Assembly: GCA_012960155.1 (NCBI GenBank)
Contig: DUBU01000021.1
Location: forward strand, 1 to 64,000
Reading direction: 5' to 3'
DNA from: Micavibrio sp.
Lineage (GTDB): Bacteria; Pseudomonadota; Alphaproteobacteria; Micavibrionales; Micavibrionaceae
DNA: 64,000 bases
Shown piece after piece: positions 4,996-11,475 of the stretch. A program made the translations under genes and the position numbers. Every line of letters starts with the position of its first letter. Position 1 is the first letter of the stretch. Under the pieces are notes generated by a model, which worked only from the letters and a program-made list of their open reading frames with translations, had not been told where the DNA came from and did not search any database.

Positions 4996-7845
4996 TTATA
5001 ACGGCTCAGCGTCATTTTTAACAGCCCCGCTAAGCGTAGACTGTAATTTTTTCAGATTGGTCAAAATAGACGCCATGTTTTGCTTAACCTGCGTTTTTTC
5101 AACCTGAATATCGGATTTAGGAGGCTCCTGCATATTCACATTCACGCCATAGGCAAATAATGCATCAGGTGAAACAATAACCGTACGCGGAGGCACAGCA
5201 ACATCTAGCTGCGGATCAGCCCGAACGATATACGTACCCGGCTTAATAAATTCAAAAACAAAGAAACCGTCATAAGACGTCATCGTTTCCTCAATCACCT
5301 CACCATGGCCGCTAACGAGCTGCATTTTCAATCCCGGAATAGGGTTTCCATTTTCAAAATAAGCGCTACCGTCAATCACACCTGTTTCCACAACAGGGAT
5401 TTCAACATCCTGCGCCACTCCGGGACGCAGCAATACCACATACCCCTTAGCCGCTGTGCGGTGAAACGGGTTTGTTAAACGTTCTTCATCCAGTGTTACA
5501 CCGGCATAATCACCTTGTTCGCCTTGAACATAAGAGACACTGCCATCTTCATTCGTCAGTTCAAGCTCACGGCCATCAACTTCCAAACCTGTATCTGAAA
5601 GCCACTCATCATCACCATCAAAAACATTATTAAGGTTGCGGTCCAAGAAAACCTTACTGCGCAGCGCATTATGAGTACGTTTTGTGCGGCTATCAAACAT
5701 ATAGCCGCCATCATCCGCAAACGGCGCCAACGTCGTCGAAGCACGTAGAACAACATCCACACCGCCATCATGGTTCCAATTTCCATCAATACTTCCAAGG
5801 AACGTGCCAAAATCATAACCGACATCTGCACCTATACGGACATCACTCGTATCTCTTAAGCTCTGCCCGTAAGTCAGTCCCGCGCGCAACTCGCGATTAG
5901 GACGGTACCTCAGCTCGGTTGTGAAATTCTGCCAATCAAACGTAGGATAAACACCGTATGTCAGTAAAGAACGACTGCTTAGCTCGCGCGACAATCTAAA
6001 GTTTGCATTTGTACGCCCAATCACAGAGCTCAAATCACTATCTTGATATATGGCCGTTAATGTGTTGCCATATCTTTGCCCGCCGCGCGCAAGGCTGTTT
6101 GACAAGCGGTATCTGGAACGCGTTGAATCATCTTCACGCTTTTCATGGTCACCGGAAACCTGAATACCGACAGAACCAAAATCCGTTGCAAAACGCTTTG
6201 TCGCGCGGCCCTCAATATCATATTTACGAGCACTCTCATCAAAGCCCGTGCGATCACTTTCAAAATCTTTGTAAAGCCCTGTACGTAAATTCACGCGCCA
6301 GCCTGCCAGTGACGTAGCTAGCCTGTTATCAACCGCATTACCGCCCCCAAATTCCTGATAAACCTCGGTCGAACCTAAGACATTACCAAAACCGTAATTA
6401 GCACCAACAGTGGCGTAGGCACGCTCCCCTTGGCGGCTAAATGTGTTCGTGCCAGTGGCAAACACTGTCAAATTACGATTAATACCGTGCGATACAGAAC
6501 CTGAATACGCAATACCCTCATCATTTTGACCAACATCTTCGAGTGTACGTACAAAGGGATCATCATCATCCAGTGTGATCAAATTATCTGTTGTATCAAC
6601 AATACCTGCTTCATATTCAGTCTTACCGGGACTTAGCAAACTGCCGCCTATCGTATGCTCTTCAATACGCTCTTCGGTTTGTCCTTGAGGCCCATACAAG
6701 ACAGTGCGGAAGATATTGTTGCCGGCGAACAGCTCTACATTCTCAAAACGATATTCACCAGTGTCACTAACAACGCCGAAATCAATCAGCTCGGAATTGC
6801 GGTACAGCTCTATCTCGTAACCAGGAATACCTGTACCATCAATCGTGATTTCGTCAAAATTCTGCTGTCTTTTTACGGGACGAGAGGAAACAGTGACACC
6901 GCGACCGCCAGTGGCACCGCGCACAAGGTTGGGCGTACGCAAGCCGACATCACCAACCCTAACTTCGCGAATACCGAGGGGCATTGTGTCATTGCCAAAA
7001 GCACGGCGCGTAAATAAAGCACGAATATTATCCGGCATTTCAATCTCACCATCCTCTATGCCAAAACGCGCACTGTAATCAGCAGAGAAACCAAGAAAAT
7101 CATTTCGACCATAGAGGTTGGTATAACCATTTGTACTGTCATCAGAGCCGCGACGGCCAATTTGCGCATCAATATCAACAGCAGGCTTGCTAATCATGCG
7201 ATAAGGGTTTTCTTTAACTACATAGCCTTTGTAATCAGGGTTACCATTTGCAAGACGCTCTAACGCTTGATCACGTCTTTCTTCGCGCTCAATACGCAAT
7301 TCATAGGGCAGCTTACGCGGTGTTGCGAGCTCCATCTGCAACTTCAAAAAGTTAAACTCGATATCTAAGGGAAACAGCTCGTTCAGACGCTCGAGCTTCA
7401 AATAAATATCACCAAAACCGCTACCATAACTTTTGATAATAGCATCATCGGGCGCCAGATCATAAACCTCACCGCCGGACGTCATGTAGTAGCCATTGGC
7501 AATATCGACCACAAATTCATTTTCAGGCTGACTATACCAACCGGTTACTTTCTGGCCTTCCAAATCAAGCTCTGTATAATATTCAATCATACGACCAAGC
7601 TCTGCGATAGGAAGATAATAGGACGAATACCCGACTTGATATCCCAAAAGCGTGCGCGCGACCACTTCATCATGTCGGCGCACCTGAACAATCAGCTCAT
7701 AAGCGTCCTTTTCACTAATCTGCGCCTTTGCAGGGGAAAGCGGCAGAATCAAAGCGCAAAAAACCAGCACCACGACGCTTAATCGTATGCTGAAAAACTT
7801 TGAAATTGTGTCACGCACTGAATGTGTGCTCATGAAACGAGCCAT
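4996..7845 (-). CDS. Outer-membrane pilus usher, alpha type (TcfC/CooC-like)
   Basis: 949 aa. A signal peptide covers about residues 20-42, ending SPAKAQ. An N-terminal domain (about 45-190; YLPIAELGRMIEYYTELD) precedes a long barrel-like region rich in alternating strands. The barrel is interrupted near residue 340 by an E-set-like plug (GTGIPGYEIELYRN, then FGVVSDTGEYRFENVELF). The last 200 residues hold an SdrD-like calcium loop (FLDRNLNNVFDGDDEW) and a carboxypeptidase-regulatory-like sandwich (SYDGFFVFEFIKPGTYIV). This architecture matches ushers of the alternate/alpha chaperone-usher class. It lies downstream of the chaperone and first pilin on the same strand. No clear Shine-Dalgarno is seen; the ATG at 7833 is an alternative start. 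Confidence 0.8.
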   Translation of the reverse strand: MARFMSTHSVRDTISKFFSIRLSVVVLVFCALILPLSPAKAQISEKDAYELIVQVRRHDEVVARTLLGYQVGYSSYYLPIAELGRMIEYYTELDLEGQKVTGWYSQPENEFVVDIANGYYMTSGGEVYDLAPDDAIIKSYGSGFGDIYLKLERLNELFPLDIEFNFLKLQMELATPRKLPYELRIEREERRDQALERLANGNPDYKGYVVKENPYRMISKPAVDIDAQIGRRGSDDSTNGYTNLYGRNDFLGFSADYSARFGIEDGEIEMPDNIRALFTRRAFGNDTMPLGIREVRVGDVGLRTPNLVRGATGGRGVTVSSRPVKRQQNFDEITIDGTGIPGYEIELYRNSELIDFGVVSDTGEYRFENVELFAGNNIFRTVLYGPQGQTEERIEEHTIGGSLLSPGKTEYEAGIVDTTDNLITLDDDDPFVRTLEDVGQNDEGIAYSGSVSHGINRNLTVFATGTNTFSRQGERAYATVGANYGFGNVLGSTEVYQEFGGGNAVDNRLATSLAGWRVNLRTGLYKDFESDRTGFDESARKYDIEGRATKRFATDFGSVGIQVSGDHEKREDDSTRSRYRLSNSLARGGQRYGNTLTAIYQDSDLSSVIGRTNANFRLSRELSSRSLLTYGVYPTFDWQNFTTELRYRPNRELRAGLTYGQSLRDTSDVRIGADVGYDFGTFLGSIDGNWNHDGGVDVVLRASTTLAPFADDGGYMFDSRTKRTHNALRSKVFLDRNLNNVFDGDDEWLSDTGLEVDGRELELTNEDGSVSYVQGEQGDYAGVTLDEERLTNPFHRTAAKGYVVLLRPGVAQDVEIPVVETGVIDGSAYFENGNPIPGLKMQLVSGHGEVIEETMTSYDGFFVFEFIKPGTYIVRADPQLDVAVPPRTVIVSPDALFAYGVNVNMQEPPKSDIQVEKTQVKQNMASILTNLKKLQSTLSGAVKNDAEPL

Positions 7846-7953: not shown

Positions 7954-8805
7954 TTACTTTAATTGCGTCGAAATAATGTAATCAGTAGAGGCTAAAGGAT
8001 CGCCATCATGGAGCTTATAGCCCATAACAATACTGTTACAACCTGCTGGCGGCACATCGATATAGCGCGTAAAACTACGACTACCAATCTCTTTGAACAC
8101 ACGGGCCTTGGCACGGCTAAGAATTAAATTACGGCCATCTGGCGCAGCACAGCGAATTTCAATATCCCCTAGAGCAGAACGTGTCCCTGAACGATTTAGC
8201 GTAAAATCCACACGAGTACGCGTATCATCAACCTTTTGGAATACGACGTTCGAAAAAGAAACATCCAAAGTCGTTTCACCGTGCAGAAAAAACACAGGAA
8301 TTCTATAGCCTGTCAACATCGTAAGCTCAGCCGCCTGTCCGCCGCCGGGTTTTGACTTCGTAGAACCGTCAGGATTAAATTCAGGCGGAATTTCTTCAGG
8401 GCCAATAGTGATGTATGAACGGTACTCCCCTGCCGCCATATTGTTATTACGGCGCAACATAAAACGGATATTTTGAAGCTGTCCCGGCTGCAGCAGCAGA
8501 CGGCGCGGCGCCACATACATATGCGGAGACGCTGGCTCTACGCCCATTGAGCGGGCCTCTTCTTCACTCACCGTCAACTTGGGACCATCTTGCCCCATAA
8601 TCAACTGATCCCACTCTAAGCGGTAAGATTCCGGCTGCTGCGCTGTATTCTTCAATTTAAAAACCGCAGAGCCGCCCTTCGGGCCAATAAAAACAAGGCT
8701 GTCCGTTAGCAAAAGTGCATTAGCCTGTCCTGTAAACGACATAAGTCCCAAAGACAATGCGCACGTAAAAACACTCTTTTTAAGGATCGCTTTAATATTC
8801 ATCAT
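7954..8805 (-). CDS. Periplasmic pilus chaperone (alpha-type, PapD-like fold)
   Basis: 283 aa with a signal peptide ending GQANA near residue 30. The next residues (LLLTDSLVFIGPKGGSAVFKLKN) resemble the first immunoglobulin-like domain. APRRLLLQPGQLQNIRF corresponds to the G1-strand/linker region of pilus chaperones. GETTLDVSFSNVVF and later strands would be domain 2. Such chaperones cap pilin subunits in the periplasm and deliver them to the usher. It starts 21 bp after the pilin-1 stop and ends 108 bp before the usher start, giving the order pilin-chaperone-usher. It is longer than typical PapD (about 220 mature residues). Confidence 0.8.
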   Translation of the reverse strand: MMNIKAILKKSVFTCALSLGLMSFTGQANALLLTDSLVFIGPKGGSAVFKLKNTAQQPESYRLEWDQLIMGQDGPKLTVSEEEARSMGVEPASPHMYVAPRRLLLQPGQLQNIRFMLRRNNNMAAGEYRSYITIGPEEIPPEFNPDGSTKSKPGGGQAAELTMLTGYRIPVFFLHGETTLDVSFSNVVFQKVDDTRTRVDFTLNRSGTRSALGDIEIRCAAPDGRNLILSRAKARVFKEIGSRSFTRYIDVPPAGCNSIVMGYKLHDGDPLASTDYIISTQLK

Positions 8806-8826: not shown

Positions 8827-9351
8827 TTATGGCGTAAAGGTTACAGTCATGATCATAGACCCTGCATAGGACCCTTGCTGCTGCGGAAATGTAGTACTAA
8901 TACGCGCTCCAATAGGAACCGTTAACTGCGTGCTAGTCAAAGTTTTAGAAGTATAGGTTTTGGTACGGCCACCTTTGGATGTCGCAATATTAAATTTTGA
9001 TACAACCATAGTCTTGCCACTTACAGAAATATTTGCAGCTTTGGCACTCAACTGAAATTCAACACTACCTGTCGTGCTCGTGATACCTGTTGCTTTACAA
9101 ACACCGGGCTGCGGCGTACCCAAAACAATAGGGCAGCCATTAGTATTCACAGCGCCACCGGGTGTAACCGTAAGCTTGCCGTTGCCACAATCTGCTAAGG
9201 TGCCATACTGGATAGGCTGACACGTAATTGCAATCTGGGCCATAGCCTGTGAAAAAGGCATCATCGATGCAATAGCTAAACTAAGCTTCACCATCACATG
9301 GCCAGATTTTTCCACAAATCCTGTCGATACTCTATTAAGCCCGGAGCCCAT
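8827..9351 (-). CDS. DUF4402-like pilin subunit 1 (cysteine-containing)
   Basis: 174 aa from the ATG at 9351, chosen because AGGA lies 5 nt upstream; an in-frame ATG at 9390 lacks such a site. The signal peptide ends near MMPFSQAMAQ. The mature part has four cysteines within about 45 residues, suggesting two disulphides. It ends in the GSYAGSMIMTVTF strand typical of DUF4402 proteins, which are candidate pilins of alphaproteobacterial chaperone-usher systems. First gene of the pilin-chaperone-usher operon. Because it differs from the cysteine-free pilin at 10870, I infer a minor, tip or adaptor subunit; this is not proven. Confidence 0.7.
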   Translation of the reverse strand: MGSGLNRVSTGFVEKSGHVMVKLSLAIASMMPFSQAMAQIAITCQPIQYGTLADCGNGKLTVTPGGAVNTNGCPIVLGTPQPGVCKATGITSTTGSVEFQLSAKAANISVSGKTMVVSKFNIATSKGGRTKTYTSKTLTSTQLTVPIGARISTTFPQQQGSYAGSMIMTVTFTP

Positions 9352-9505
9352 ATAAATCCTTACAAAAACTGAATATTCCGAGTACAGCATGGACGCATGC
9401 CATCATCAAGTCCTTATAAAGATTCATACGCAAAGAATTCACCTTGCCTTCGCAAAAACTATAGATGACAATGTTACAAATGCTTTTTAAATCAGGAATC
9501 TAGAT

Positions 9506-10795
9506 ATGATCAAAATTGACAGTGACAATGCCGCCATTGAGAAAAATATCCGCCTCATGGAAAAACGTATCGAGGAATATGGTGGCTACCTTGACCCTGA
9601 TCTTTACATCACCTGTGAAAACGGAGAGATGAGCGTTGAAAAACACGGCTTCATCAACCCGACAAAGCCTCTGATTGCGCTACCAACAGACTTGTTACTG
9701 CCGGCAGAAGCCATGAAAATGAGCGTAAAAAATGATGAGATGTTTATGAATCCTGACAAGGGTACGTTAACAGACATCCAAACAGAGATGGCTGAAACCA
9801 TGCTGGATCTGTACAACCTGACAACAAAAATCAAAAACCACAAGGCAAGCTGCTGCTGGTTCACATACCAAGAAGCGCCAGAAGCTCTGGAAGACTTAAT
9901 GTCCGCGCGGGCCATGAACGACAACCAAAACAAGTTCATGAAATTCACACGCGGCGAAAGCGATCTCGATAGAGATCAGTTCCTTTGCGAAACATACGTA
10001 AAAACCAGAACAATCGGCTATAAAAACCCTGACTCCGAAGACGATGATGCGCCGCAGACTAAAATCATGCCCATCGTCGACTTCATCAACCACCACGCCA
10101 CAGGCGCTAATTTCGGTTTCGCAAAAGGCTTTGATAACACGCAAAAAGACAAAGAATTTTTGCAGATTAAGGATAGCCGCCCGCTGACAAACAGCAATGA
10201 GTGCTTCGCCTATTACAATCAGATGGACACTCTGGATGCCTTTATTAACTATGGCTTTCCGGATACCAGCACAAATTTTGTACGCTCCGTACCTGTTGAG
10301 TTCAGCCTGCCCGATGGCACCGTCATTGCGGCGCGCGGCCTGATGGGCGCCAATAAAAAAGGCAAACTGAATAAAACACTGGCCGGCTTGCGCCCCTACA
10401 TTCCACCGACAATTATAAATACGGAGGAAAGACTGGAAGTATCCTACTTCATTATCCCTTGTGATGCGCAGACACAGCACGCTTTGCGCCGTGTTTTAAG
10501 ATTATTTATATCCAACCGTGCCGCACGCAAACTCAATACAAATCAAATTTGGGCAGAGGTTCTAAAGGCTGAGGAAATCATCGTCTCGACCAATGTTAAA
10601 TTCTATCAGGACCTGATCATGAAATGTGATCAGAATCTAGCCAAAGCGCCAAACGCCTCCTGGGAAATGACCAAAATGGTTGCGCGCATGCAATTGGAAA
10701 AACTTTTCAAATACCACTACGAAGAGAGCCACTTTACAGGCGAAGCCTCTACAAATGCCGGCGCAGAGACCGAAGAGTTCGCCGCCGCTGAATAA
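9506..10795 (+). CDS. SET-domain protein lysine methyltransferase (SETD3/Rubisco LSMT-like)
   Basis: 429 aa, no signal peptide, so cytoplasmic. A split SET fold can be followed. Residues 53-70 (TKPLIALPTDLLLPAEAM) match the early SET strands. Residues 155-171 match the inserted helical region. D192-x-x-N195-H196 and N202 form the NH cofactor motif. Residues 232-251 (ECFAYYNQMDTLDAFINYGF) contain the catalytic Tyr249 in the NYGF motif. The C-terminal 150 residues (LRRVLRLFISNRAARKL and later helices) resemble the LSMT substrate-binding domain. The family transfers methyl from SAM to protein lysine or histidine. It sits between two pilin genes, divergent from the pilin-1 operon. AGGAA lies 7 nt before the ATG. 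The substrate is unknown; pilin is an inference. Confidence 0.78.
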   Translation: MIKIDSDNAAIEKNIRLMEKRIEEYGGYLDPDLYITCENGEMSVEKHGFINPTKPLIALPTDLLLPAEAMKMSVKNDEMFMNPDKGTLTDIQTEMAETMLDLYNLTTKIKNHKASCCWFTYQEAPEALEDLMSARAMNDNQNKFMKFTRGESDLDRDQFLCETYVKTRTIGYKNPDSEDDDAPQTKIMPIVDFINHHATGANFGFAKGFDNTQKDKEFLQIKDSRPLTNSNECFAYYNQMDTLDAFINYGFPDTSTNFVRSVPVEFSLPDGTVIAARGLMGANKKGKLNKTLAGLRPYIPPTIINTEERLEVSYFIIPCDAQTQHALRRVLRLFISNRAARKLNTNQIWAEVLKAEEIIVSTNVKFYQDLIMKCDQNLAKAPNASWEMTKMVARMQLEKLFKYHYEESHFTGEASTNAGAETEEFAAAE

Positions 10796-10822: not shown

Positions 10823-10850
10823 AAAAGCCCGCTAAAGCGGGCTTTTAAAA
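10823..10850. terminator. Bidirectional rho-independent terminator
   Basis: A perfect 10-bp stem (AAAAGCCCGC / GCGGGCTTTT) with a 4-nt TAAA loop lies between the convergent SET methyltransferase and pilin-2 genes. A or T tracts on both sides allow it to work in both directions. Confidence 0.9.
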
Positions 10851-10869: not shown

Positions 10870-11475
10870 TTAGAATGTTGAAAGCAGTGTGTAAGTACCT
10901 GTGTATGTACCTGGGACGTTGTTCGCTTTAAAGTTCAGAATACCACCGATAGAAACGTTACCGATTGTACCTGAGTTAACTACAGCACCTGTACGAACGT
11001 TACCACCAGACTTAAATGTCTTAGTATACGCCGCCATTTTTGCTGTCGCTTTGTAAAGCAACTTAACAACTTTAATCGTTTTAGATGTCGCACCACCCGC
11101 ACCTGCTGTTGACAGTGTCAAAACACCGGCAGCAAATTCAGGAATAGACAGTGTGAATGTCGCACTTTTTGGTGCTGTCAAAGCTACTTTACCGTTTGTA
11201 CCGGCAGAGATGATAACACCTTTGGTGATTGTAGAACCACCAGCAGCTGATTGCAAAGTAAGAACACCTGCTGATTTTACCGCGAAAGTACCGAAGTTCA
11301 GTTTTGTTAACTGGCTAACGCCAAGTGGGTTAACAATTTTCGCTGTAATGTTCATAGTGTCTGACGCTGAGGCCTGGGCCCAAGCATCGCCGGTCAAGAA
11401 TGGGTTAGGGACAAAAGTACTTAATGCCACCATAGCCACGCCCGTACCGAGGGCTTTTTTATTGAGATGACTCAT
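10870..11475 (-). CDS. DUF4402-like major pilin candidate (subunit 2)
   Basis: 201 aa from the ATG at 11475, which has AAGGAG 7 nt upstream; a longer frame to 11559 lacks this. The signal peptide ends near GDAWAQA. The mature protein is cysteine-free and rich in Gly, Ala, Thr and Lys (about 14 lysines). It has the DUF4402 pattern: an early NITAKIVNPLGVSQLTKLNFG strand pair region and a C-terminal PGTYTGTYTLLSTF strand suited to donor-strand exchange. A strong ribosome-binding site, its own promoter and a good terminator suggest high expression, as expected for a major pilin. It is convergent with the SET methyltransferase gene and downstream of the TPR-sulfotransferase. Confidence 0.72.
   Translation of the reverse strand: MSHLNKKALGTGVAMVALSTFVPNPFLTGDAWAQASASDTMNITAKIVNPLGVSQLTKLNFGTFAVKSAGVLTLQSAAGGSTITKGVIISAGTNGKVALTAPKSATFTLSIPEFAAGVLTLSTAGAGGATSKTIKVVKLLYKATAKMAAYTKTFKSGGNVRTGAVVNSGTIGNVSIGGILNFKANNVPGTYTGTYTLLSTF

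Follow-up and report, generated by a model that had tools for sequence, protein, structure and literature searches.

A predicted SET-fold methyltransferase in pilus gene clusters of uncultured alphaproteobacteria is paired with lysine-bearing pilins

SET enzymes are read mostly as eukaryotic chromatin writers. Bacterial SET proteins have mainly been discussed as effectors acting on host histones (PMC3980110). Rubisco LSMT, SETD6 and SETD3 combine a split SET fold with a C-terminal helical substrate domain. In SETD3, which shows that this fold can act on histidine, the pocket is built by N255 and W273; these are replaced by Phe and Ala in the lysine enzymes LSMT and SETD6, whereas Y312 is shared (PMC6684798). 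Lysine methylation of bacterial surface filaments and adhesins is known. FliB of Salmonella methylates many surface lysines of flagellin and raises hydrophobicity and adhesion; it uses a [4Fe-4S] mediated reaction (PMC7181671, PMC8598068). KmtA and the rickettsial outer-membrane protein lysine methyltransferases act on many lysines of the adhesins AtaA and OmpB (PMC11784438, PMC4023394). These are not SET proteins and probably have a class I methyltransferase fold; their substrates are autotransporter-type adhesins, not chaperone-usher pilins. A methylated pilin, linked to motility, has been reported for Synechocystis, and no SET enzyme is named for it (cited in PMC4023394). Methylation is also reported to shield the mycobacterial adhesin HBHA from proteolysis (PMC4023394). 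A SET enzyme that modifies pilins was not encountered in the open-access literature searched.

Here, we examine a SET-like gene in a 64,000-nucleotide stretch of Micavibrio sp. DNA (contig DUBU01000021.1, assembly GCA_012960155.1; the window). A first-pass annotation from the sequence alone had described a SETD3/LSMT-like protein between two pilin genes. It considered methylation of pilins before export as a testable idea, and a ribosomal or other target as equally possible. The observation is confirmed. The reading frame is open, starts with ATG and carries D192-F-I-N195-H196 and an NYGF motif with Y249. It is flanked by two minus-strand DUF4402 genes, one of which encodes a pilin with about 14 lysines after its signal peptide. 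The features of the locus and of related loci in the same genome (G000) are compiled in Table 1.

Table 1. Features of the pilus locus in the window and of related loci elsewhere in the same genome (K, lysine).
Location	Strand	Feature	Basis
4996..7845	-	Usher-like outer-membrane protein, 949 aa; divergent	No PF00577 hit; synteny in 20 or more loci; TcfC E=0.04 in 1 of 11 homologues; usher identity not confirmed
7954..8805	-	PapD-like periplasmic pilus chaperone	PapD_N E=0.14 alone; NCBIfam PRK09918 E=5e-4; PapD_N in 7 of 13 homologues, best 9e-7
8827..9390	-	DUF4402 pilin, chaperone-proximal; likely substrate; true start probably downstream of the ORF start	PF14352 E=1e-10; 8 K in the last 140 aa
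9506..10795	+	Predicted SET-fold methyltransferase gene, 429 aa; R168, D192, N195, H196, Y237, Y249 at the SAM and catalytic site	Alignment, profile search, structure model, fold match
10823..10846	.	Terminator-like hairpin in the 75-bp gap between the convergent SET and pilin genes	Consensus match only, scored on the - strand
10870..11475	-	DUF4402 pilin with signal peptide, proximal to the TPR-sulfotransferase, lysine-rich; likely substrate; the mechanical ORF reaches 11559 from a GTG, MSHLNKK start preferred	PF14352 E=2.2e-7; 12 K in the last 140 aa
11756..14167	-	TPR-sulfotransferase with a PRSGTT motif	PF13469
14381..15424	+	AMIN-domain protein	PF11741 E=3e-9
G000:C11:2584-3117		TPR-sulfotransferase	Neighbour of the second SET/pilus locus
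G000:C11:5641-6798		Second SET paralogue (29% identical), locus L031	In a second complete pilus locus, same direction as the pilins
G000:C38:49274-49702		Orphan DUF4402 pilin, locus L156, similar to the pilin at 10870-11475	10 K in the last 140 aa; no chaperone or usher gene in the 3.4 kb read

Sequence models alone do not identify the protein. Single-sequence searches of Pfam, NCBIfam and the PDB gave nothing, and the SET model PF00856 reaches only E=0.073 in one of 27 homologues. The SET assignment therefore rests on a profile hit and a fold match. Homologues were collected from 142 genomes of the order and 27 proteins were aligned. Most notably, R168, P189, H196, Y237, D241 and Y249 are invariant, and N195 is missing in one row only. 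The profile of these 27 finds human SETD6 (E=0.0014), followed by pTAC14/PAP7 at E=0.7-1.6, aligned on P-x-x-D-x-x-N-H and Y-G-F. An AlphaFold model has a pLDDT of 90, and a Foldseek search returns only SETD3 (E 3e-8, prob 1.00), LSMT, plastid polymerase (PAP/pTAC14-type) and SETD6 chains at E<=0.001. A viral fold library contained no match at E<=0.001. The TM-scores are modest (0.3-0.5), so the domain arrangement differs. The C-terminal part (residues 326-402) is helical in the model, yet Pfam searches gave no PF09273 hit. Of note, the classic GxG motif of SET-N is degenerate and replaced by NGE(M/L)S-like residues. Accordingly, we consider the protein a divergent relative that would work like LSMT rather than a typical member of this group. 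With respect to the target residue, an alignment anchored on the R and D-x-x-N-H motifs places I170 and V191 (I/L/A and V/I/L/A/G across the family) at the positions of N255 and W273 of SETD3, and an invariant Tyr at that of Y312. By alignment only, this pocket, which includes I247, is of the lysine type. The SETD3 label of the first-pass annotation fits the fold, but the pocket is unlike the histidine pocket of SETD3.

The association with pili is not a local coincidence. Up to 20 kb around the homologues were examined and the ORFs were clustered without prior labels. The recurrent neighbours were DUF4402 pilins, chaperone, usher and TPR-sulfotransferase. Of the 27 SET genes 21 have a pilin, chaperone or usher gene within 2 kb. 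Of the other six, two (in genomes G023 and G028) sit at loci broken by contig ends; the likely other halves were found on other contigs, joining them being our inference. The SET gene occurs between the pilins in opposite orientation, in the same direction ahead of the pilins, or beyond the usher, so adjacency is not one frozen arrangement. Like the genome of the window, genomes G002, G013 and G120 have two SET genes, each at a pilus locus. SET and chaperone trees agree (Mantel r=0.57, p=1e-4). All 23 SET genomes have the chaperone, against 69 of 119 others (Fisher p=2e-5). The gene family is confined to this order plus family f10 and one weak match in the class sample, with none elsewhere in a sample of the phylum. 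The f10 homologues (L146-L148), two in tandem in some genomes, and the two homologues of the group labelled f3 (L052, L053), which lie next to dnaN, are outside pilus loci. They may be the older, non-pilus form or have another substrate. The proximity of TPR-sulfotransferase genes in f10 was dismissed because those genomes hold 13-16 such genes.

Strikingly, the pilins differ in lysine content according to the presence of the SET gene. We fetched 80 further chaperone loci as controls, counted lysines in the last 140 residues of each pilin, taken as the mature region, and sorted the loci by SET status. The 22 SET loci average 5.9 lysines. In SET-less genomes 17 TPR-sulfotransferase loci average 0.56 and 30 other loci 0.87 (Mann-Whitney p=7e-11). 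Using 120 or 160 residues gave the same result. In seven genomes with both a SET locus and another pilus locus, the SET-linked pilins have more lysine on average every time. Phylogenetic least squares on the chaperone tree keeps a slope of 3.8-4.0 lysines (p=9e-8 at lambda 0.8; p=3e-6 at lambda 1), and of three independent pairs three were mostly concordant and none opposed. Inside the TPR-sulfotransferase class p is 4e-5 to 1e-4. Of 20 amino acids lysine is first by four orders of magnitude or more; Asp (lower, p=0.002) and Tyr (lower, p=0.02) follow. Pilin arginine, chaperone lysine, usher lysine and locus GC (0.474 against 0.453) do not differ, and base composition was rejected as the cause. 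Admittedly, the SET status changes only about four times on the tree, which limits phylogenetic independence, the genomes are drafts, ORF calling was mechanical, and the lysine measure was chosen after looking at the pilins. The hypothesis was formed on the first 66 loci plus the window; the later 40 behaved the same, including three loci assigned by a SET gene elsewhere in the genome (L097, 10 and 4 lysines; L103, 9 and 9; L100, 4 and 3).

The correlation is not without exceptions. Some SET loci have modest lysine (L050, 1 and 3; L039, 1 and 4), and a few SET-less pilins have 4-6 (L071, L117, L118). Other SET-less loci, e.g., L062, L064, L065 and L079, have pilins almost without lysine although neighbouring secreted proteins have 4-6% lysine. 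Three stray SET genes are informative. In genome G118 the gene is far from the pilus genes, N195 is changed to R, and the pilins have no lysine. The stray copy of G064 has lost R260 (R260V) and its pilins have 0-1. The stray copy of G071 is intact and its pilins have 10 and 4. These cases fit a model in which active enzyme and pilin lysine go together, in trans too, yet they are only three and were read after the fact. Convincing pseudogene remnants of SET were not found in SET-less loci. Recognisable DUF4402 pilins outside the order have 0-4 lysines, which is only a hint because automatic ORF picking failed on high-GC loci. A sharp lysine motif was not found; T/S at -2 and hydrophobic residues at +/-1 are consistent with strand surfaces and loose specificity. 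An AlphaFold model of the pilin was unusable (pLDDT 48), so that lysine exposure could not be mapped.

The reading which we consider likely is that the protein is a divergent lysine methyltransferase of the LSMT/SETD3/SETD6 architecture, dedicated to the DUF4402 pilins of its own locus, although neither catalysis nor methyl-lysine has been demonstrated. Enzyme activity, lysine as the target atom, compartment and benefit are inferred. A signal peptide is not apparent by eye and the enzyme would need SAM, so it would act in the cytoplasm on pre-pilins, before or during Sec export, with R168, N195 and H196 at the SAM site and Y249 as the catalytic tyrosine. It would methylate several scattered lysines with loose sequence specificity, as FliB does on flagellin and KmtA on AtaA. 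The subunits would then be assembled by the chaperone and usher-like protein into a filament whose surface lysines are methylated, probably more hydrophobic or more protease-resistant. The predicted fold and the linkage to pilus loci, either of which could have refuted the proposal of the first-pass annotation, do not do so; the proposal is supported, not proven. The comparison of pilin lysine content with SET presence, which that annotation had not proposed, points strongly to pilin lysines as the substrate and makes a ribosomal or housekeeping target unlikely. We further consider it more probable than not that the presence of the enzyme decides whether the pilin can carry lysine: without it DUF4402 pilins are kept nearly lysine-free, with it lysines are admitted and methylated. 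This would be the first SET-based modification system for a bacterial surface filament, with enzyme and substrate residue content co-evolved. If confirmed, it is an independent solution to filament methylation beside FliB and KmtA and offers a native bacterial substrate for an LSMT-type enzyme.

Presently, other explanations appear less likely. The one which survives best, though improbable, is that the enzyme methylates another component of the pilus system, i.e., the TPR-sulfotransferase, the chaperone in the cytoplasm, or one non-lysine pilin residue, and that the lysine difference is a hitchhiking trait of the pilus types that carry SET. The linkage covers the whole locus, SET is more frequent in TPR-sulfotransferase loci (17/39 against 5/46, p=0.001), histidine is a possible target of this fold, and there are few SET changes on the tree. 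However, SET loci without a linked sulfotransferase exist (L032, L044, L048, L055), chaperone lysine does not differ, pilin His does not rise, and the pocket is lysine-type. Further, lysine stands out among 20 residues after phylogenetic correction and inside the sulfotransferase class. A catalytically dead SET-fold scaffold or pilin-binding factor, i.e., an escort or regulator, is doubtful. The degenerate GxG motif and the absence of any hit to a curated SET model would fit, yet the SAM-site and catalytic residues are the most conserved positions over very divergent sequences, the copy that lost N195 is a stray on a long branch away from pili, and a scaffold does not explain the lysine correlation. 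Least likely is a housekeeping methyltransferase for a ribosomal protein or translation factor: the f3 and f10 copies outside pilus loci would allow it, but most copies are at pilus loci in different orientations and positions, with one copy per locus where a genome has two, and the gene is present in only 23 of 142 genomes of the order.

The TPR-sulfotransferase is a core neighbour of this pilus class with or without SET. The genome of the window has only 3 Sulfotransfer_3 genes and two of them sit at its two SET/pilus loci, which raises the possibility that the pilin or a surface glycan is sulfated. Finally, AMIN genes recur beside the other pilus class, and AMIN hits appear within the usher-like protein in some genomes.
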